A stretch of 64,000 nucleotides of DNA. Origin: Tubulanus polymorphus. Its lineage: Eukaryota > Nemertea > Palaeonemertea > Tubulaniformes > Tubulanidae. The position numbers and the translations under genes were made by a program. The stretch spans positions 1,830,072-1,894,071 of the forward strand of contig NC_134034.1 of assembly GCF_964204645.1 (NCBI RefSeq), given 5' to 3'. Each line of letters opens with the position of its first letter. The first letter of the stretch is position 1. Below are positions 3,311 through 59,977 of this stretch, piece by piece. A model generated the notes under the pieces. That model ran no database searches, had not been told where the DNA came from, and saw only the letters and a list, made by a program, of their open reading frames with translations.

Positions 3311-3354
<44 letters not shown>

Positions 3355-3499
3355 ACCGTGATCTGAAAGGCGGTACCTCTATGGCGAGGCCTGTCATTGC
3401 ACAAAGACTGGTTGACCCATACGATCTCCCCAAATGTGGGAGACTCGGGTGTACAATTTCTGGTAGTGGGGGACTGCGTACGCGCTATCCCCTCTATAT

Positions 3500-9641: not shown

Positions 9642-28886
<19,245 letters not shown>

Positions 28887-30845: not shown

Positions 30846-33800
30846 ATGAACATCGTTTTGCTGGTTTGCCTGATGATCCAGGTTTCCTTGGCCTTCAATT
30901 TTCCAGGTATGAAAAACAATCGAAGCGTGGTAACATCCTAATCCTCTAAGCGAGGTTGAAATGAACAATATTGATGATATCATTATTTTTTGTTGTTAAG
31001 CGCTATCTTCTATTATCCTATCATATCAGTTTTCATAACGCTATTTTAGGTACCGCAAATAAGATAAAACCCCACTATTTACAAATTAAAAAGAAATCTA
31101 AAAGCACACCTAAATCTAAGGCACACTTGACGATGATCTCTAGGGTGAGATCGAAACGTCGCGTTCGTATATTTTAGATTGTTTCAATAAATAAATTTCT
31201 CGATTTTAGATTTCTTTTAATTTGTAAATGGTGGGTTTTTATCTTATCATCTGTTCACCCGACGTTTGAGTGTGGTTATCGTACTAGGTACCGCTATCTT
31301 AGGCCTTGTGTAGATTATCAATCCAAGACGTATTCGTATTGACAGGACTCTACACAGATCGGTTTAATCATACGTTTCCCAAAATCTCGTTAAATTTCCA
31401 GAGCAATAAAGATAATGATGATAATATCTTATAAGAGTAATTTTTAGTGTCTGGAAACAAATAAACCTGCGTATATGCTTACAGGGATGCCTCGTCAGGT
31501 GCAAAATATTATTGGAGGGACATCACCCCGAGGACAAGACGCCAATGAAGGAGGTTTTGACGTGTCCGGAATGTTGGGCCGACTGAAGAAAGATATCCCT
31601 CAACTAACGCCGGGCTATAAACAGCCTCAAAAAGGTACCCAACAGCAACAAGGTATCCAACAACAAGGTATCAGACAGCAACAAGACGGTATCCAACGAC
31701 AAAGTATCCAACGGCAACCACAAGGTATCCAACAACAGGGTTTCCCGCAGCAGCAAGGTTTCCAGCAACAGCAAAAAGGTTTCCAATCGCAGACGAGACC
31801 TATTCGGCAAAGGCGCCGAAGACGACCGCGTCCCCGATTGCAACCTCAATCCAATATCATCAAACAAAGACCCGTTCTACGGCCTCAATCTAAGCCAGTT
31901 CAATCTGAAGCTCGACCTGTCAAACAGGCAGAAATAGAGCCTGTTCAGTTTCAACCCGCACAAAAGGCTCAAGAAAAACCAGCCACACAACCTCAACAAA
32001 GCACTCAGTCACAGGCGAATGTACAACAATCTGCACCAAGACAACCAAAGGCAAGAGATTCATACGTGCATGTAGTCGAACAGCCTGCCCGACAAGCAAA
32101 TCAGAAAGAACCAGTAGTGAATCCATCTGTGGGCCCGAAAAACAACATAGGAGCACCACCTCCGCAAACAAGTATTTTCAGCCCTCCACAAGCTCAGCAG
32201 AGTAAACCCGTGCCGCAAAATAACATCGGCGCACCTCCACAAGCAAGTATATTCAGTCCCCCGACACCGGCAACAAATAAACCCCTTATACAGCAACAAA
32301 TGAACTCCTTACCACAAAATAATATGGGAGCACCTCCACCGCCACAGATGAGTATGCTGAACTTACAGCAACAACAAAATCCGCAACAAATGAATCCTCT
32401 CCAACAGAATAACATGGGTGCTCTCCCGCGACCACAGATGGGTATGGGTAACCAACAGTTTCAACAAAATCCTCAACTAATGCACCCTCCCCAACAGAAT
32501 GGTATGGGCACACCCCAACAACCACAGATGGGTATGCAAAACCCACATCAACAGATGCACCTACCACTGCAACAAATGCGACTACCACAAAATAACATGG
32601 GCGTTCCCCCACCACCACAGATGGGTATGGCTAACCTACAGTCACAAGAAAATCCTCAACAAATTCATCGTCTTCCAAATAACAAAGGTGCATTCCGGCC
32701 GCCATCGATGGGAATGCAAAATCCAAAGCAACACATGAACCATCGACAACAAATCAACATGGGTGTACCCCTGCCACCACACATGGGAATGCAAAATCCA
32801 CAGCAACAAATAAACTCCTTACCACAAAGCAATATGGGCGTACCCCGGCCACCACACATGGGAATGCAAAATCCACAGCAACAAATGAACTCCTTACCAG
32901 AAAGCAATATGGGTGTACCCCGGCCACCAATGATGGGAATGCAAAGTCCACAGCAACAAATGCACCATATACCACAAAACAACATGGGTGTACCCCGGCC
33001 ACCACAGATGGGTTTGTTGAACCCGCAGCTTCAAAAAAATCCTCAAGCTCAACCTCCTCAGCAAATGCATATGCAACATCCTCAATCAGGTCCGATGATT
33101 CAAAATTCACCATCGCCAGCCTCTAACCCGGGACAACAATCTGTCGTGATGGGTAAGCATTTCCAACAACCAGGATCACCAGCGCAACCCGGACAACCAA
33201 CTCAAACGGCTTTCCCATATTTCCCGTTCAATTTCCCACCGGCGAAAGCCAGATACCCTTACAACATGGTACCGTGTACACCGGACATGCATCAATGCGA
33301 GTTCTCGCTCATCCTGCAGCACTACCTTACAATGGTAAGCGTTAACAACGAACAGGTCTCCATCGATAACAGTGGAGCTATTGTCGATCCGACGAATCTC
33401 GCGAATACCATTGAAGAACAGGACAAGATCGTCATAGCTGACGGGTTACAACCGCCTAAACTAGTTATAGCCGTAAACAATTCAATACCGGGTCCAGCTC
33501 TACACGTCTACACAGGTCAGGATATCATCGTACACGTAACAAACCTACTGCTATCCGAGTCTGCGAGTGTACACTTCCACGGGCAAGATGTAGCCGGTTC
33601 CCCTTGGACGGATGGTACGCCCTATATCACCCAATGCCCGATTGGGCCCGGGCAAACATTCACGTACCGGTTCCAAGCCGGGATACCGGGCACGTCGTTT
33701 TACCAGTCGATGTTGGGTATGCAACAACAAGCGGGGGTTTACGGGGCCTTTATTGTCCATGCTCGCGACCAGCCGCATGACCCGCTACACGATAAGGAGC

Positions 33801-35029
33801 TAGTGCTGTCAAACTGGAATGATAGAGAGACACCTGTTGAGCTGTTTATGAAGGATGACTGGGATCAGATGCAAGGTTCCCCACTTTTTTCTGGTATTCT
33901 AATGAATGGGAGAAAAAGCGCGGTTGGTCCAGCTATTTTCGACTTCAAAAGCGGTGAATCCTATCGCTTCCGATTAATCGGCGCTCAAACTAAAAACCCG
34001 ATCACTGTACGATTCCATGAGCACTCGTTTACAGTTGTGGCGCTAGATGGCGTTGATATAGAGCCGGTTGAAGGTCACATTATTACCATATGGCCGGGTG
34101 AGAGAACCGACGTCATAGTTAAAGCCGACCAATCACCGACATTTGATTATAAGATAATTGCTAAGTATCCGGGTGGGAATTACCAAGGTTTTGCTTTGAT
34201 ACGGTACGATGGTACAAGCGGAACTGTTAGTACAAACCCTGCCGGATGCACGGCCGCTACTCCTTGTGTCATCATCAATTGCCTCAGCCCGAAAGATGTC
34301 GCCGATTCTCCCATATTCAAATGCGTTTCGCTAAACGATATGAAATCGAAAGGCGTACCGGCGCCGAACCTTTACTGGAAATCCGGCCCGATATTCCTAA
34401 ATTTCGTCGTCGCTTCGTTAGCACAACCAGAAAACGTGGTCAACGCTCGCAGATTCATAAACCCGACTACAAACACCCTGGTGGCGTCCGGTGGAACGAC
34501 ACCGTGCGATCCGCGTAAGTGCATCGACGGCCAGGTTTGTAAATGTACGGCTCAATTCAACGTGATGAAGAAGTCAGTGACGCAATACGTGTTCGCTAAT
34601 ATGGGCTCTAACACGCAGATGAGAGCCATTCATATGCACGGAAACCACTTCCACGTGTTGAAAGTGCAATACGACCCAACACACGGCGAAATCGTCTGCA
34701 GCAACGACCAAATAACCGAGTTATCGCTTTGCAGACGTCTGAAATGGGCAGACGACAAGTGGAACTACAACTGGCACCTGATCCCGAATCTGAACATCAT
34801 GAACCCCATAGTTAAAGATACTGTATACATCCCCCCGAATGGATACGTGGTAGCTCGTGTGTTCAACTATAATCCGGGAGCCTGGGCCATACATTCTACC
34901 GACGTGAACGAGTTTATATCGGGAATGTCTATCGTCAGTCGAGTCGGAGAGCCGGGTCGAGATTACAGGACGCCTGTAGATTTACCGATCTGTTCGAATT
35001 ACGACGCCGACATACAAAGAAGTAAGTGA
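30846..35029 (+). CDS. Secreted Gln/Pro-rich protein fused to a degenerate laccase-type multicopper oxidase (1201 aa)
   Basis: Exon 1 (30846-30906) encodes signal peptide MNIVLLVCLMIQVSLA plus FNFP. Exon 2 (31485-35029) joins in phase 1. Residues 19-55 form a short module (FNFPG-MPRQVQNII, then FDVSGMLGRLKKDIPQL). Residues about 56-605 are Gln/Pro/Met/Asn-rich, with a basic RQRRRRRPRPR patch and about eight imperfect 25-residue repeats (NMGVPRPPHMGMQNPQQQ). From about 610 three cupredoxin domains of animal-laccase type follow (PCTPDMHQCEF, PGPALHVYTGQDI, TQCPIGPGQTFTYRF). Copper motif 1 is intact (H717-F-H719). Motif 2 reads YQSM at 760-763 instead of HSH. Motif 3 keeps H1070-M-H1072 but has Arg1067 at the type-1 His. 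Motif 4 reads H-S-T (1157-1159) with Glu1163 instead of HCH...H. The type-1 Cys and five of ten His are lost, so oxidase activity is unlikely. The last codons overlap a perfect donor (35022); splicing to 35106-35146 would change the C-terminus to IFSIPDVIRDRTG. Confidence 0.93.
31059..31247. mobile_element. MITE, about 189 bp, in the signal-exon intron
   Basis: The ends 'ataagataaaaccccac' and the complement of 'gtgggtttttatcttat' pair. The arms continue through 'tttacaaattaaaaagaaatctaaaa' and its complement. The centre carries 'gatcgaaacgtcg' and AATAAA, as in the element at 56468-57025. Confidence 0.75.
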
Positions 35030-35105
35030 CTTAAATTTATGTCCATAACTCTTTTTGAATCGTCATTCATCTTATCATTATTAACAATAATGTTTTCGTT
35101 CGCAG

Positions 35106-35146
35106 TTTTCAGTATTCCAGATGTTATCAGGGATAGAACAGGGTAA
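35106..35146 (+). CDS. Possible alternative last exon of the oxidase-fusion gene
   Basis: An acceptor 'ttttcgttcgcag' ends at 35105. With the donor GTAAGT at 35022 it would remove an 84-nt intron, and 13 residues later the frame closes with TAA (35144-35146). The donor is an excellent match although reading through gives a stop within three codons, so either end is possible. Confidence 0.4.
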
Positions 35147-37378
35147 GATATTTGTCTTAGTTCGAACCGAGAGTCCTGAGCATTCCTAAGTACTGGGGCC
35201 GCGCTCCTCAGACCCACGATACCATTTCCGCCGTTCTTCCAATTTCCGATCGTCGACATGTGACACGTATTCAGGATTTACCTATTACTTGATTGCTAAA
35301 GAGCTACAAACACCAATTATTTGACATCCAAAAACTGATCGTTTACATGTTTTCAGTACCTCACCTGAGCAGGATTATGTTGATCCTTAAAGAATGGTTC
35401 TGACAGTAACTTTTCTGTTAGCTCGTGGTGGTACAATAACCACTGACAATACACAATTGGTATTCTGTAACTAAAAGGATAATAGGTCTTGGCATTGATA
35501 TGGAAAGTTTCGTCTGTCAGCTCTTAGCCATTTAAAAGTCCAGGGACAAAATTTCAATGAATTCTTCCTTATTTTACTTTTTTTAAATGCCTTTTTCTGC
35601 TCTGCTCACTTTCAGACAAACTCACAGCGCTGCCGCATCCGTTCCTGGAGTCTGAACAGATCACCACTAACCATATTATCTATTCTGAGCTATGTATTTA
35701 TTATCTAAGAATAAATTGGTCTTGGAAAATGACACTCATGAGTTTTAGATTTGCTTTTTTTCCTTATAGATGGAATGAGAAACCGAAAAGTTGGTTAAAG
35801 TTAGATAATATACACACAATTTAAACAATATGTTTGTTATGGCATGCGTTATACAGATGGTAATTTACTTCAACCAACTTTTGAACAACTGGTCCCAGGA
35901 TGATGGAGAGTTAAGAACTAATCGAAGGATGTGGTCTCTATGTCTTTTCATAGATATGGGGATGGTGAATCAACCTTCAGCAAACTGATTCAGCTTATAG
36001 CCTGGCTAGGTATTGATAGCTGGAGATTGGGATGCAGTGGCTTCAATTCGTTCATCCCTGGTCGGCGATTCCTAAGACCCAGATCCATGACTTCATTGAG
36101 AGTTAATCTGCCCCAAGTGACAGATTCATTAGAGTTAGACTCGTTTAGTTTCTGCGTCCATTATTTCACGAAACGGAAATATGTTCCTATAGTTACATTG
36201 GATTGGTACATGTAACACCTAGACAAACGTTGATGAACGAATGACTTGCCCTAGTCAGGGCCTAAAACTGCCCCAAATGAAAGATTTCCTCCTTTTCGAC
36301 ATGGTTTATATACATCCACGATTTAACGAAACGGAACTTTCCTTGCCTCTCATATTCCACGTAAATGACTTCATCGAATGTAAATCTTTTAAAAGAAAAG
36401 TTTGTTCCATTTCCACGAAATCAAATCTCTCGAGCCCCGAGTTTGTGAATTTCACACCTAGACGAATATAGACAAATGAGTGACTCCCTTGAAAATCTGC
36501 CCATTCCACGAAAAAGAAATTTCTCTAGCCTAAAAAAGGATTGGTAATGAAATAACAAATGTAGACAAAATTATACTTCCTTGTAAATCTGCCCTAAGAA
36601 AGAAACAGATTTGCTTTTCACGAAAAAGAAATTTCTCCACAGACTAGCCGCGCAGGATTAGTGAATTTAAACGTAGGGAAATAAAATCTTGCCCCCGATA
36701 AAACACAAAACCATATGCCTTGATTCAAATCTATATGTACACGTAATCTTCTACTAAGAACGATATATCTATTCATTTGGAACGAGTTGAAAAAGCGTAC
36801 CGTCTGTTGACTGAGAAATAATCGTCCATCATTGCTGAAGGTTTTGACGGTAAGATATTGTAGGAAATGGACACAGGTGTGTGGTTCAGGGGTATGATTT
36901 ATCGCGGGGTCCAGGTGTTCACAGCGATATACCTATGTTCATTGCTAGGTGTCCACCACATAGTCTCTACATAGACGCGCGAGATTTAGGTAAGATTATC
37001 TTCGTTTTCTCAGATCAAGAACATTAACAGCATCTGATGTCAAGGTAATTTGCGTATTGATAATTTGACTGTGAAACTAACTCAGGCCTACGTACAATCT
37101 GAAATTGGGGTTTTATAGACTGGGTATAGTTTAGTTATCCCTAGGGATTCTTGCCCTGGGCCCGGTTTCATAAGACCGGGTATAAAAGTTATCACTAGGG
37201 ATAAATCCTCGACAATGGACCCGGTTCTATAGTGTGGGTGATAGATAACCCAAATAGTGAAAACTAAAAAACCAGATGAAATCAATTTCATTCTATATGC
37301 AAATACAATGAAGTTGAAAACCTAGATACAAATATATCATATACCACAGAATAAGGGATACCCATCAACCGCTATATT
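35147..37378. other. Intergenic; degenerate repeats, no gene
   Basis: A candidate AATAAA for the upstream gene lies at 35710-35715. From about 36080 to 36660, 'aaatctgccc', 'cacgaaaaagaaatttctc' and 'acacctagac' blocks recur at roughly 130-150-bp intervals, a decayed tandem repeat. 37110-37240 holds relics of the 165-bp MITE. Confidence 0.55.
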
Positions 37379-37450
37379 TGGGCTGTAGCTCAGTAGTAGA
37401 GCGCTCGCTTCGCATGCGAGAGGCCCCGGGTTCAAATCCCGGCAGCTCCA
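37379..37450 (+). tRNA. tRNA-Ala (CGC) with a mismatched first base pair
   Basis: The D arm is GCTCAGTAGTAGAGC. Anticodon stem CTCGC/GCGAG encloses TTCGCAT (anticodon CGC), and T stem CCGGG/CCCGG encloses TTCAAAT. The acceptor stem TGGGCTG/CAGCTCC has the alanine identity pair G3:U70, but position 1 is T opposite C72. TTTT at 37454-37457 can terminate pol III. It ends only 30 bp before the start codon of the next gene, so the two must share or compete for promoter space. It could be a functional gene or a recent pseudogene. Confidence 0.8.
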
Positions 37451-37479
37451 GTCTTTTGAAAATCATATTCTATTCTAGT

Positions 37480-39269
37480 ATGGCGTTGTTGAATTTGGTA
37501 ACGTTAGTGTGTGTTGTGGCGGGTGTACGGGCCTTCAATGTTCCAGGTAAAATAATCATTTTTTGAATGAAAGCATTTCATTTACTCGATTCCGGGGGGA
37601 TCATGCTGTTCATGAGTACTTCACTTTTTCAGGTTTGCCTCCTCAGCTGGGACAACTGATGGGCGGTGGCGGTGGCGGAGGTGGCTCACCATTTGGAGGA
37701 GGAAGTCCATTTGGAGGTGGTTCCCCATTTGGAGGAGGTGGTAAGAAGAATAGTATTTCGATTCTCTAAGAATTTGGTCTAAGAATGTTGACAAAGTTCT
37801 AAATTTCTGTTGATCAGTTCGAAAATTGTCTGTGTTTAATTTGACTCTGGATACAGTTCCACAGTTATGTGGATAATTAGACTGTGAATCCAGCTCCACA
37901 GTTGTGTGGATTCAATTTAGATCCAATTCCACATGTGTGCGTTGGTTTACCCAGATCCACACAGAATTTCCCAAATAATCTCTGACCAAACGTAACTCTT
38001 GAGTTCCATAAAGCCTAATTCTTGTTGGTTTAAATAGTCAAATACAACTTGCAGCCTTGGTAAATGATCATTGAGCGTGTTCATTTTCGACAAAGTATCC
38101 AGATCCAAAATATCGTGGGAGGACAGCTGTTCTGCATAAAAAAGGCAGCGTCCAATATTTCTCACCTTAGAAAAGTTCCTTCTATGCCCCATTTGTATTC
38201 AATAGAATCTCATCGCATCATGAAGTCCTTTATCGTAAGAATATTTGTTTCTTTCATTTTAGGAATGTCTCGAGTATCGCAATTCATGGCTCCTCCAGGA
38301 GGACAACAACAACAGGGAGGTTCAGCCGGTTAGTATCCTAATCACATCAGTCGATTTATAGCTAGGGATTGTAACATATACAAGGTGCGGTTTATTGCGG
38401 TTACAGGTGGTTTGCCGCCCTCCGTTCAGAAATTCATGCAACCGAAAAACACCAAGAAGGTGGATATGGGATCTATGGCATTCGACCCCGCTGACTTTGC
38501 CGATATCAAGGAAAGCATGAGGAAAATGAAGGAAGAAGACGATAAGAAAAGGGCGAGAGAAAAGGCTGCTAAAAATGGTCAGGCCACTGGACAAGGACAA
38601 GGACAAGCTGCCGGACAAGTGCAAGGACAAGCCGTTAGACAGGGGCAGGCCCAAAATGCTGGACAAGGGCAAGGGCAAATATCGCAAAAGTGGAATACCG
38701 GTAACGGTCAGAATCAACAAAACCAAGTTGCCCAAAATAACCGGGCACAGCAGGCGCAAGGAAGAAATGTGAATATCAACCAACAACAGATGCAGAATGC
38801 TTACCAGATGCAACCCCAGTTCCAACAGCAACAACAACAGATGCAGAATGCTAACCAGATGCATCCCCAGTTCCAACAGCAACATCAACAGATGCAGAAT
38901 GCTAACCAGATGCAACCCCAGTTCATGCAGCACGGACAGCAGATGCAACCACAGAATTATGGCCAAAACAACCAGATGCAAATTCGACAAAATTATCAAC
39001 AGGCCGCAATGCAAGCCCAGCAACCTCAGCAAACTTATTTCCAAAACGTTCAGCAACCACAACAGAACTATCATCCTCAACAAGCGTTATACCAACAGAC
39101 GCAATATCAGCAGCCTCAACAGAACTTCTACCAAAGCTATCAGACGCAACAACCACAGCAAAACTATTTCCAAAACAACCCGGGACATTACGTTCAGCAA
39201 CCGCAGCAGCACCAACACTGGCAAACTCCACAAGGATTTGGTCACCACGGAGGCTACATGCAGGGATAG
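37480..39269 (+). CDS. Secreted Gln-rich protein, isoform A (exons 1-4, 367 aa)
   Basis: Exons: 37480-37546, 37633-37740, 38263-38328, 38407-39269. Every intron is phase 1, splitting a glycine codon. Exon 1 encodes signal peptide MALLNLVTLVCVVAGVRA plus FNVP. Exon 2 encodes GLPPQLGQLM and a Gly-rich SPFGGG repeat. Exon 3 encodes GMSRVSQFM and a Gln run. Exon 4 opens with GLPPSVQKFM, a charged FDPADFADIKESMRKMKEED segment, then GQ- and QQQMQNANQM-type repeats and an aromatic QPQQNYF / FYQSYQ tail. The Gln/Asn/Tyr-rich composition with a signal peptide suggests an extracellular structural protein. No enzyme or known domain is visible. The AATAAA at 39309 supports exon 4 as a terminal exon. Confidence 0.85.
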
Positions 39270-40974
39270 ACACCGATTGCCCGGCCATCCTCTATTACTG
39301 GAATATTGAATAAATTTGATTTCTGTGAACTCTAAGATGCTAGTTTCCTACCGATATCATTTATATTTAGATACGTTTTGTTTACTTCACGCTCTCTCTC
39401 TCTCTCTCTTTCTCTTTCTGTCCGTCTTAGATTTAGGCAGATTTCTAACTCTATTGTAGGGAGGCTTCTTCACAAACTTGGAACGAGATGAATTGAATAT
39501 TACGTTTTGTACGATTTCTTTTTGTGCAGGTCAAGGCCAGAACATGATGACTATGGGTTTAAATCCGAATCAACATCAAACTCCAGCACATGCCGGTCAT
39601 GGCCACGGTCATATGGGTGGGCACGGACATGCTAGTATGTTGGGCCACGGGCGCGGAGGGGTCGCCAGTGGACAACCACAGACGGCTGGATTTGGGCAGC
39701 CTCAAATGCAAGGTAGGTTCGGTCAGCCTCGTATGCAAGGACAGTTTGGTCAGCCACACATGCAAGGGCATGGATTTGGCCAGCCACAAATGCAGGGGCA
39801 TGTATTTGGCCAGCCACAAAATCAAGCTGTTAGATTCGGTCAGCCACAACCACAAGAAGTTAGATTTAACCAACCACAGATGCAAGGGCGTGGATTTGGT
39901 CAGCAACAAAGGCAGGCAGGTGGGTTTGGCCAGCCAAAGATGCAAGCAGGTGGGTTTGGCCAGCCTCAGCCTCAGATGCAAGCTGCTCGATTCAGCCAGC
40001 CACAAGCTCAACGTGAGGGTGGGTTTGGCCAGCTACAAAGGCAGGCAGGTGGGTTTGGCCAGCCACAGATGCAAGCAGGTGGGTTTGGCCAGCCACAAAG
40101 GCAGGCAGGAGGAATTGGCCAGCAACAAAGGCAGGCAGGTGGGTTTGGACAGCCACAGATGCAAGCAGGTGGGGTTGGCCAGCCACAAAGGCAGGCGGGT
40201 GGAATTGGCCAGCCACAAAGGCAGGCAGGTGGAATTGGCCAGCCACAAAGGCAGGCAGGTGGCTTTGGTCAGCCACAAATGCAAGCAGGTCAGCCACAAA
40301 CCCAACAAGGGGTTGGTTTTAACCAAGGATTCCAGCAGCAGCAGCAGCAGCAGCAGCAACAGGGAGGATTTAGACCTCCTGGGATGCCGACAAATGGAGG
40401 ACTACCGAAAGATGTTCAAGAAATTCTCAACATGAAACAATCAGAAACGAAAGAGTTTGATCTGGATGAAATGTTGAAAGAGATCGGTCAAGTTCGTGCT
40501 CAGATACCCAGTCTTAATCAGGACAAAGAAAAACAGCAAGGAGGTCCCCAACAACAGGGTCAACCGCCTAATCAAGGACAAGGGGGTCCTCCACAGCAGG
40601 GCCAACGGCCTAACCAAGGCCGTCCTCCCCAGCAGCAATTCAACCAAGGTCAACCTCCCCAACAGCAATTCAACCAAGGTCAACCTCCCCAACAGCAATT
40701 CAACCAAGGTCAACCTCCCCAACAGCAATTCAACCAAGGTCAACCTCCCCAGCAGCAATTCAACCAAGGCCAACCTCCCCAGCAGCAAAACCAGAACCAA
40801 CAGCCTCACCAGGGTCAGCCACAACCTCCTCAGCAGCAGATTAATCACGGCAAAGCAGCACAGCAGTCCATCCAGGGCCAGGTACCACAGGAGTCCAATA
40901 AAGACCAAAAGGCGCAGCAGTCCATGCAGGACCAAACGGCTAAATCAACAAACTTCGGAACATGGAGAAAATAG
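37480..40974 (+). CDS. Secreted Gln/Gly/His-rich protein, isoform B (exons 1-3 plus 39530-40974, 561 aa)
   Basis: The exon at 39530-40974 begins after acceptor 'tctttttgtgcag' in phase 1, matching the donor of exon 3 (38328). The open frame upstream of the acceptor has no signal peptide, so I infer an alternative terminal exon rather than a separate gene. It encodes a His/Gly-rich start (HAGHGHGHMGGHGHASM), about 30 copies of a 7-10-residue GGFGQPQMQA / GGIGQPQRQA repeat, a poly-Gln run, then GLPKDVQEIL with FDLDEMLKEIGQVRAQIPSL. Six FNQGQPPQQQ decapeptides follow, encoded by nearly identical 30-bp DNA units (about 40610-40790), then a Gln/Lys tail. The AATAAA at 41202 lies 228 bases after the TAG. 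Other splicing, for example a GTAACG donor inside exon 4 at 38700, is possible. Confidence 0.75.
39309..39314 (+). promoter_or_regulatory. Polyadenylation signal, isoform A
   Basis: AATAAA 40 bases after the TAG of exon 4. Its position before the 39530 exon implies alternative terminal exons. Confidence 0.65.
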
Positions 40975-41351: not shown

Positions 41352-41880
41352 CTGATGACATCGAGAGAATCTACCACGTTCCTCCCTCGGCAGGGATACA
41401 AATCTGATGGCGTCGTGAGACTCTACAATGTTACTCCCTCGGCAGGGATACAAATCTGATGGCATCGTGAGAATCTACCATGTTATTCCCTCGGCAGGGA
41501 TACAAATCTGATGACATCGTGAGACTCTACAATGTTACTCCCTCGGCAGGGATACAAATCTGATGACATCGTGAGACTCTACAATGTTACTCCCTCGGCA
41601 GGGATACAAATCTGATGACGTCGTGAGACTCTACAATGTTACTCCCTCGGCAGGGATACAAATCTGATGACGTCGTGAGACTCTACAATGTTACTCCCTC
41701 GGCAGGGATACAAATCTGATGACATCGTGAGAATCTACCATGTTACTCCCTCGGCAGGGATACAAATCTGATGACATCGTGAGACTCTACAATGTTACTC
41801 CCTCGGCAGGGATACAAATCTGATGACATCGTGAGACTCTGTCGCGTTCTTCCCCAGGAGGGATTCGAACCTGATGGCAT
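41352..41880. repeat. 52-bp minisatellite, about 10 units, with tRNA T-arm-like core
   Basis: Unit 'ctgatgacatcgtgagactc' + 'tacaatgttactccctcggc' + 'agggatacaaat'. The last unit (41840-41880) reads 'ccccaggagggattcgaacctgatgg', which on the minus strand looks like a tRNA T arm with TTCGAATCC. The other units carry a decayed version of it. Confidence 0.9.

Positions 41881-43137: not shown

Positions 43138-59977
<16,840 letters not shown>

Follow-up and report, generated by a model that had tools for sequence, protein, structure and literature searches.

What would two neighbouring genes be for that begin in the same way and run on into Gln-rich repeats, when one of them also carries a laccase-type domain? 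The genes, here called A and B, lie in the window (the whole 64.0-kb stretch of DNA that was analysed, C10:1830072-1894071 of a 267.8-Mb, 77-contig assembly; Table 1). Laccases are usually interpreted as enzymes that harden animal surfaces, so automatic annotation would probably call gene A an oxidase, a label that its residues indicate is very likely wrong. We favor, at a probability of about 0.5, the reading that the products of A and B are secreted proteins of an extracellular scaffold and that the domain of gene A is a folded anchor with no oxidase function. The key feature, which goes beyond what an earlier note on this DNA had observed, is that the fused domain reads as a non-oxidase by its residues and that the loss is shared by another fused gene elsewhere in this genome.

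Table 1. Features of genes A and B in the window and of the gene pair on contig C9
Feature	Location	Strand	Description
Gene A exon 1	30846..30906	+	ATG, hydrophobic core judged by eye, donor CCAG/gtatga
Gene A exon 2 (gene model)	31485..35021	+	
Gene A exon 2, first part	31485..33240	+	Module GMPRQVQNII...FDVSGMLGRLKKDIPQL, then Gln/Pro/Asn/Met-rich repeat linker
Gene A exon 2, second part	33241..35021	+	Laccase-fold domain, three cupredoxin domains, without type-1 copper ligands
Gene A exon 3 (probable)	35106..35146	+	IFSIPDVIRDRTG, TAA stop; splice signals only
AATAAA past gene A exon 3	35710		
Gene B exon 1	37480..37546	+	Signal peptide (by eye) + AFNVP, phase-1 donor in Gly codon
Gene B exon 2 (phase 1-1)	37633..37740	+	GLPPQLGQLM + Gly-rich SPFGGG repeats
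Gene B exon 3 (phase 1-1)	38263..38328	+	GMSRVSQFM; module similarity not above chance
Gene B exon 4, long form (phase 1-1)	38407..38700	+	GLPPSVQKFM...FDPADFADIK module; donor CCG/GTAACG
Gene B short form, exon 4 3′ extension	38701..39269	+	Gln/Asn/Tyr-containing tail to TAG; AATAAA at 39309
Gene B exon 5 (long form)	39530..40974	+	His-rich stretch, FGQPQ/RQAGG decapeptides, GLPKDVQEIL...FDLDEMLKEI...QIPSL module, QFNQGQPPQQ decapeptides, TAG
AATAAA 3′ of gene B long-form stop	41031 and 41202		
C9 fused gene	C9:13.960-13.964 Mb		Signal-peptide exon, phase-1 split Gly, Gly/Met-rich + PPQAQQMRPQMNQ repeats, laccase fold
C9 neighbour gene	about 3.3 kb upstream of fused gene		GRGYPPPQMAGAPP repeats, own signal-peptide exon, phase-1 split Ser codon

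The first exon of gene A encodes MNIVLLVCLMIQVSLAFNFP, a putative signal peptide followed by AFNFP, and ends with a phase-1 donor inside a Gly codon, after which exon 2 resumes with GMPRQVQNII. Gene B has the same arrangement, its exon 1 encoding MALLNLVTLVCVVAGVRAFNVP ahead of a phase-1 split Gly and then GLPPQLGQLM. The shared start described in the earlier note, a short putative signal-peptide exon ending in AFN(F/V)P before a phase-1 intron that splits a Gly codon, is therefore seen directly in the sequence, and the Gln/Pro/Gly/His repeat that the note placed between modules is present as repeat chains in both genes. In gene A, the 587 aa that precede the laccase-fold domain (Q 22%, P 17%, zero Cys) contain 75-nt and 90-nt repeats within the exon 2 linker, and chain and domain share one open frame of 1193 codons from stop to stop. 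Introns 1 and 2 are phase 1 with GT..AG ends, the 3′ end is most simply modeled as a third exon, and the predicted product is 1212 aa. The long-form model of gene B, with a predicted product of 659 aa, has four introns that are all phase 1 with GT..AG ends; the predicted short form is 367 aa, with its stop at 39267-39269. Two alternative 3′ ends for gene B are plausible, each stop having an AATAAA downstream, and the tails they would produce differ in Tyr content (12 of 188 residues in the short form, 0 of 480 in the long form). The linkers are rich in Gln, Pro and Gly and have no Cys, and a match to the Pfam family Decapeptide (PF25296) in exon 5 of gene B reaches 23.2 bits, below the cut-off of 45. 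Both genes combine a signal peptide, judged by eye, with a repetitive low-complexity chain, as a secreted matrix protein would. From this composition alone we infer a scaffold role, and the earlier suggestion of a matrix protein is plausible.

According to the earlier note, a short module at the start of exon 2 of gene A recurs in exons 2 to 5 of gene B (B2 to B5 below). The resemblance was compared with chance by Smith-Waterman alignment, counting how many of 2000 shuffles of one partner reached the observed score; the modules had been chosen by eye, so these counts are optimistic. The A and B5 modules score 44 against 19.0+/-3.7 for shuffled sequence (1 of 2000 as high), and similarly few shuffles match B4 with B5 (3), A with B2 (2) or B4 with B2 (2); the pairs B5 with B2 (22), A with B4 (29) and B4 with B3 (122) are weaker. 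GMSRVSQFM, the B3 copy, is at chance against A (1259/2000), B5 (1248/2000) and B2 (1272/2000), although it likewise opens a phase-1 exon. The recurrence, and the comparison with chance that had been set for it, thus hold for A, B2, B4 and B5, which exceed nearly all shuffles in most pairings, and fail for B3, which is at chance against three of its four partners. An expression for the full motif, written after the modules were known, has three matches in the six frames of the window, all in genes A and B, and none in 200 residue-shuffled copies of the window. Because the modeled introns are all phase 1, the inner exons are symmetric (1-1) and would be free to duplicate, and the shared start together with modules at the beginnings of symmetric phase-1 exons fits the exon duplication proposed earlier. 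The wide family envisaged alongside it is weak: a genome search with the A and B5 peptides (a low-sensitivity search that needs close seeds) returned self-matches only, and the module is not clearly recognizable in the C9 pair, where the best of nine comparisons was reached by 8 of 1000 shuffles and the others by 31 to 686.

The domain of gene A exceeds the Pfam cut-offs for Cu-oxidase_3 (PF07732, 4.8e-32), Cu-oxidase (PF00394, 1e-19) and Cu-oxidase_2 (PF07731, 1.1e-12). Its PDB sequence matches include ascorbate oxidase and laccases, and six NCBIfam MCO models match it, all far under cut-off. An AlphaFold model of the domain is poor (mean pLDDT 44.4, pTM 0.50, 6 rows); the AlphaFold input drew on open reading frames from five of the six bacterial loci found, L067, an incomplete locus, being left out. 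MCOs lead the 50 Foldseek matches listed, and this supports a laccase fold weakly, because the TM scores are 0.39-0.56 and the rmsd values 10-18. One could suppose that gene A tethers a still active laccase-type oxidase to a matrix protein, so that the matrix would be hardened in place: the three-domain fold and the histidines of L1 (HFH) and L3 (HMH) are kept, and the intact laccases described below show that the chemistry probably exists in the animal. We nevertheless consider this very improbable. The domain has the three cupredoxin domains of a laccase but only 5 of the ten His and one Cys that serve four coppers (Table 2). Relative to ascorbate oxidase, the L2 motif FYHGHLG has become FYQSMLG, so that its HxH reads QSM, and the L4 motif FHCHIEPHLHMGM has become IHSTDVNEFISGM; the His-Cys-His path reads H-S-T, with Ser in place of Cys, and the type-3 set is incomplete. 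Since all type-1 and several type-3 ligands are missing, the domain cannot be called an oxidase, and judged by its sequence it is very likely no working laccase. The laccase-type domain of the earlier note accordingly survives as a fold and not as an enzyme. In laccases, electrons enter at the type-1 copper and pass via His-Cys-His to the trinuclear site (PMC4203857). With Arg, Ser and Glu at the type-1 positions and Ser-Thr in the path, this electron route is lost, and a domain without a type-1 site would not be expected to take up electrons from a phenol.

Table 2. Residues at the copper-ligand positions of the ten laccase genes
Gene	L1a	L1b	L2a	L2b	L3a	L3b	L3c	L4a	L4b	L4c	L4d	Kept
Window gene A	H	H	Q	M	R	H	H	H	S	T	E	5/11
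C9_13.96	H	H	H	M	E	H	H	R	S	S	S	5/11
C9_13.845	H	H	Y	S	V	H	H	H	S	M	Q	5/11
Other seven laccases	H	H	H	H	H	H	H	H	C	H	H	11/11

The loss is not confined to the window. Ten laccase loci were recovered by both a protein search and a family search of the genome, and the alignment comprises these ten genes, both C8 genes being incomplete at the N-terminus. Seven have all 11 ligands; they share the three cupredoxin domains of the window domain, to which they are 30-36% identical, but have 10 His and 1 Cys where it keeps 5 of 11. The remaining three lack the entire type-1 site (0/3 each), H/C/H being replaced by R/S/E in the window gene, E/S/S in C9_13.96 and V/S/Q in C9_13.845, and all three retain the type-2 histidines (L1a, L3b) and the type-3 histidines L1b and L3c. 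Two of the three, gene A and C9_13.96, are fused to long Gln/Gly/Pro-rich chains, the C9 fusion holding chain and laccase fold in one open frame of 1039 codons from stop to stop. There too, a predicted secreted repeat gene adjoins the laccase-fold fusion, the pair spanning C9:13.956-13.964 Mb, but because the gene order is reversed it is no simple copy of the window block. No fusion was seen for C9_13.845, whose first exon is a candidate only, so loss of the type-1 site does not require fusion.

Conservation elsewhere in the domain bears on whether these losses reflect decay. Ligands apart, the seven intact genes are invariant at 105 columns. The window gene keeps 80 of these, C9_13.96 66 and C9_13.845 83, with 51 of the columns retained by the whole trio and 6 by none of it. 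At that rate, the complete absence of type-1 ligands from each of the three genes would have a probability of about 2e-4 (6/105 cubed), so general divergence does not explain it; the estimate is naive, as a single loss may be common to the genes. Chance fusion of a decaying laccase pseudogene to a repeat gene would suit the tree, where the longest branches (1.72 and 2.21 changes per column) belong to the two fused genes, but it is hard to credit given that both fused genes keep long open frames, that there are two such genes at all, and that the window domain retains 80 of 105 invariant residues and 11 of 11 invariant non-ligand Cys (5 of 11 in C9_13.96) alongside zero type-1 ligands. We take the window domain to be maintained on the strength of those 80 residues. 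The tree unites the two fused domains (98/96), a join that may be long-branch attraction, their branches being the longest; a clade of all three genes without a type-1 site, also with long branches, is neither supported nor rejected (p-AU 0.31).

If the domain is maintained without being an oxidase, it may still work in copper chemistry, as a secreted regulator that pairs or competes with the active laccases or as a carrier that delivers copper to them, the chain only localizing or spacing it. This main rival to our reading gains from the presence of seven intact paralogues in the same genome and from the retention of both type-2 histidines in all three genes, as described for MCORP and SKU5 (PMC4203857). 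We nonetheless regard it as unlikely: the whole trio would retain the four L1/L3 histidines with a probability of about 0.06 (51/105 to the fourth power), which puts their retention near background, and 587 aa of module and repeat chain is long for a tether. Such near-background retention is also why we do not claim metal binding, which these sequences weakly suggest. The simplest interpretation is that the domain has a structural or docking role.

Insect MCORP offers the closest comparison (PMC4203857). It lacks the type-1 residues and keeps the two type-2 histidines, and the Tribolium protein, with ligand losses comparable to those of the gene A domain, showed no detectable oxidase activity; it is nevertheless required for insect viability and ovary development, and an MCO fold without type-1 ligands can thus have a real function. 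By this description the gene A domain resembles it in fold, in the absent type-1 ligands, in the broken His-Cys-His, in the type-2 histidines present and in being a maintained gene, but MCORP has no residue of His-Cys-His, whereas the window gene and C9_13.845 still have the first L4 His. One might therefore ask whether gene A encodes an MCORP-like protein with a physiological role, in reproduction for example, unrelated to the building of material. We consider this slightly less likely than the copper-related role, since the passages that describe MCORP give it an N-terminal signal anchor and mention no Gln-rich fusion, and its authors report no orthologues outside insects. The N-terminus of gene A has a hydrophobic start, judged by eye. 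The plant protein SKU5 is likewise described with an ascorbate-oxidase-like fold, without type-1 and type-3 ligands and with the type-2 histidines, and Bp10 without most ligands (PMC4203857); both are closer to ascorbate oxidases, and that description mentions no Gln-rich fusion for them.

Returning to the scaffold reading, we suggest that A and B would be exported as long, flexible Gln/Pro/Gly-rich chains with a few short modules, and that the chain of gene A, like that of its C9 relative, would end in a laccase-type fold that is no longer an oxidase. This folded domain would most likely dock the chain to partners or surfaces, and its L1 and L3 histidines may hold a metal ion. The chain itself is a plausible substrate for cross-linking, by a transglutaminase acting on Gln and Lys or by the seven apparently intact laccases acting on Tyr, and the alternative 3′ ends of gene B would then yield a Tyr-containing tail and a Tyr-free one. 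In molluscan shell matrices, Gln-rich low-complexity proteins combine a secretion signal with a long Gln-rich chain, as is predicted for genes A and B in a host that may have no shell. At the level of titles and abstracts, no laccase-fold fusion is apparent in reports on those proteins (PMC6003135, PMC8217771), and the titles and opening abstract lines of the open-licence literature on laccases in shells, tubes, mantle and jaws and on matrix proteins yielded no fusion of a laccase fold to a Gln-rich chain. We tentatively envisage a lophotrochozoan class of scaffold whose Gln-rich chain has as its structural cap a former laccase that lost the electron-entry copper but is still folded and perhaps metal-binding. 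If true, this would add a lineage, beside those of MCORP and SKU5, in which an MCO became a non-oxidase by losing the type-1 site while keeping the type-2 histidines. What an MCO fold does without an oxidase role is a question that stands for those proteins as well, and ten laccase genes in one genome, seven intact and three without a type-1 site, allow it to be approached by direct comparison.

Repeat chains also lie at or near the genes without a type-1 site. Long Gln/Gly/Asn-rich open frames number three in the window (one in gene A, two in gene B), two at C9_13.96 (the fused gene and its neighbour) and three at C9_13.845, against none in five regions (69.3 kb in total) around the seven intact laccases, a comparison of unequal stretches (64.0, 19.9 and 19.8 kb against flanks of about 1 to 7 kb). 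Two of the three frames at C9_13.845 belong to a Gly/Asn/His/Gln-rich gene that is preceded by a candidate signal-peptide exon and lies about 8.4 kb upstream in the same orientation; the third belongs to a gene with GQPGQVPY repeats, excluded from the matrix genes because by eye it appears to encode a membrane protein. The host of these genes is most likely a lophotrochozoan. Searches of the assembly recovered neither COX1, with prokaryotes as controls, nor a molluscan haemocyanin domain, for which the controls gave no match either. The lophotrochozoan assignment comes from C6, where ten homeodomains follow one another (5.318-5.635 Mb), some of them resembling Lox5, Lox2, Lox4 and Post2.

Gene B, which encodes the putative secreted Gln-rich repeat protein, may possess an additional, non-coding first exon farther 5', because its ATG is immediately preceded by an AG that could serve as a splice acceptor. 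On the same side, only 28 nt separate the ATG from a tRNA-Ala gene, and the 3' side of gene B is closely followed by a tandem array with a 52-nt unit (9.4 copies, 95% matches). Other RNA genes in the window include two tRNA-Lys genes that lie about 4 kb apart and have equal Rfam scores.

Farther along the window, a series of open frames resembles the exons of a transporter that we take to be of the ABCB/MDR type, and a 14-residue motif is present in their translations. The window also carries two repeat tracts on opposite strands, about 17 kb apart, that have a translated unit in common (one example being 11 residues long).

Elsewhere in the assembly, an open frame near C9_13.845, the third laccase-fold gene lacking all type-1 copper ligands, contains GQPGQVPY repeats followed by hydrophobic stretches and, judged by eye, appears to encode a membrane protein. 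On contig C6, ten consecutive Hox-type homeodomains span about 316 kb.

Locations of the features described, in window coordinates unless a contig is named
Feature	Position	Strand	Basis
U1 spliceosomal RNA gene	3339-3494		Rfam, 87.3 bits
tRNA-Lys (CTT)	11115-11189	minus	Rfam
tRNA-Lys (CTT)	15168-15242	minus	Rfam
Repeat tract	27594-28335		
tRNA-Ala (CGC)	37378-37451		
Tandem array	41352-41840		
Transporter-like frames	43141-63181	minus	
Repeat tract	44705-45499		
GQPGQVPY-repeat frame	C9:13848992-13849891		
Homeodomain cluster	C6:5.318-5.635 Mb	single strand
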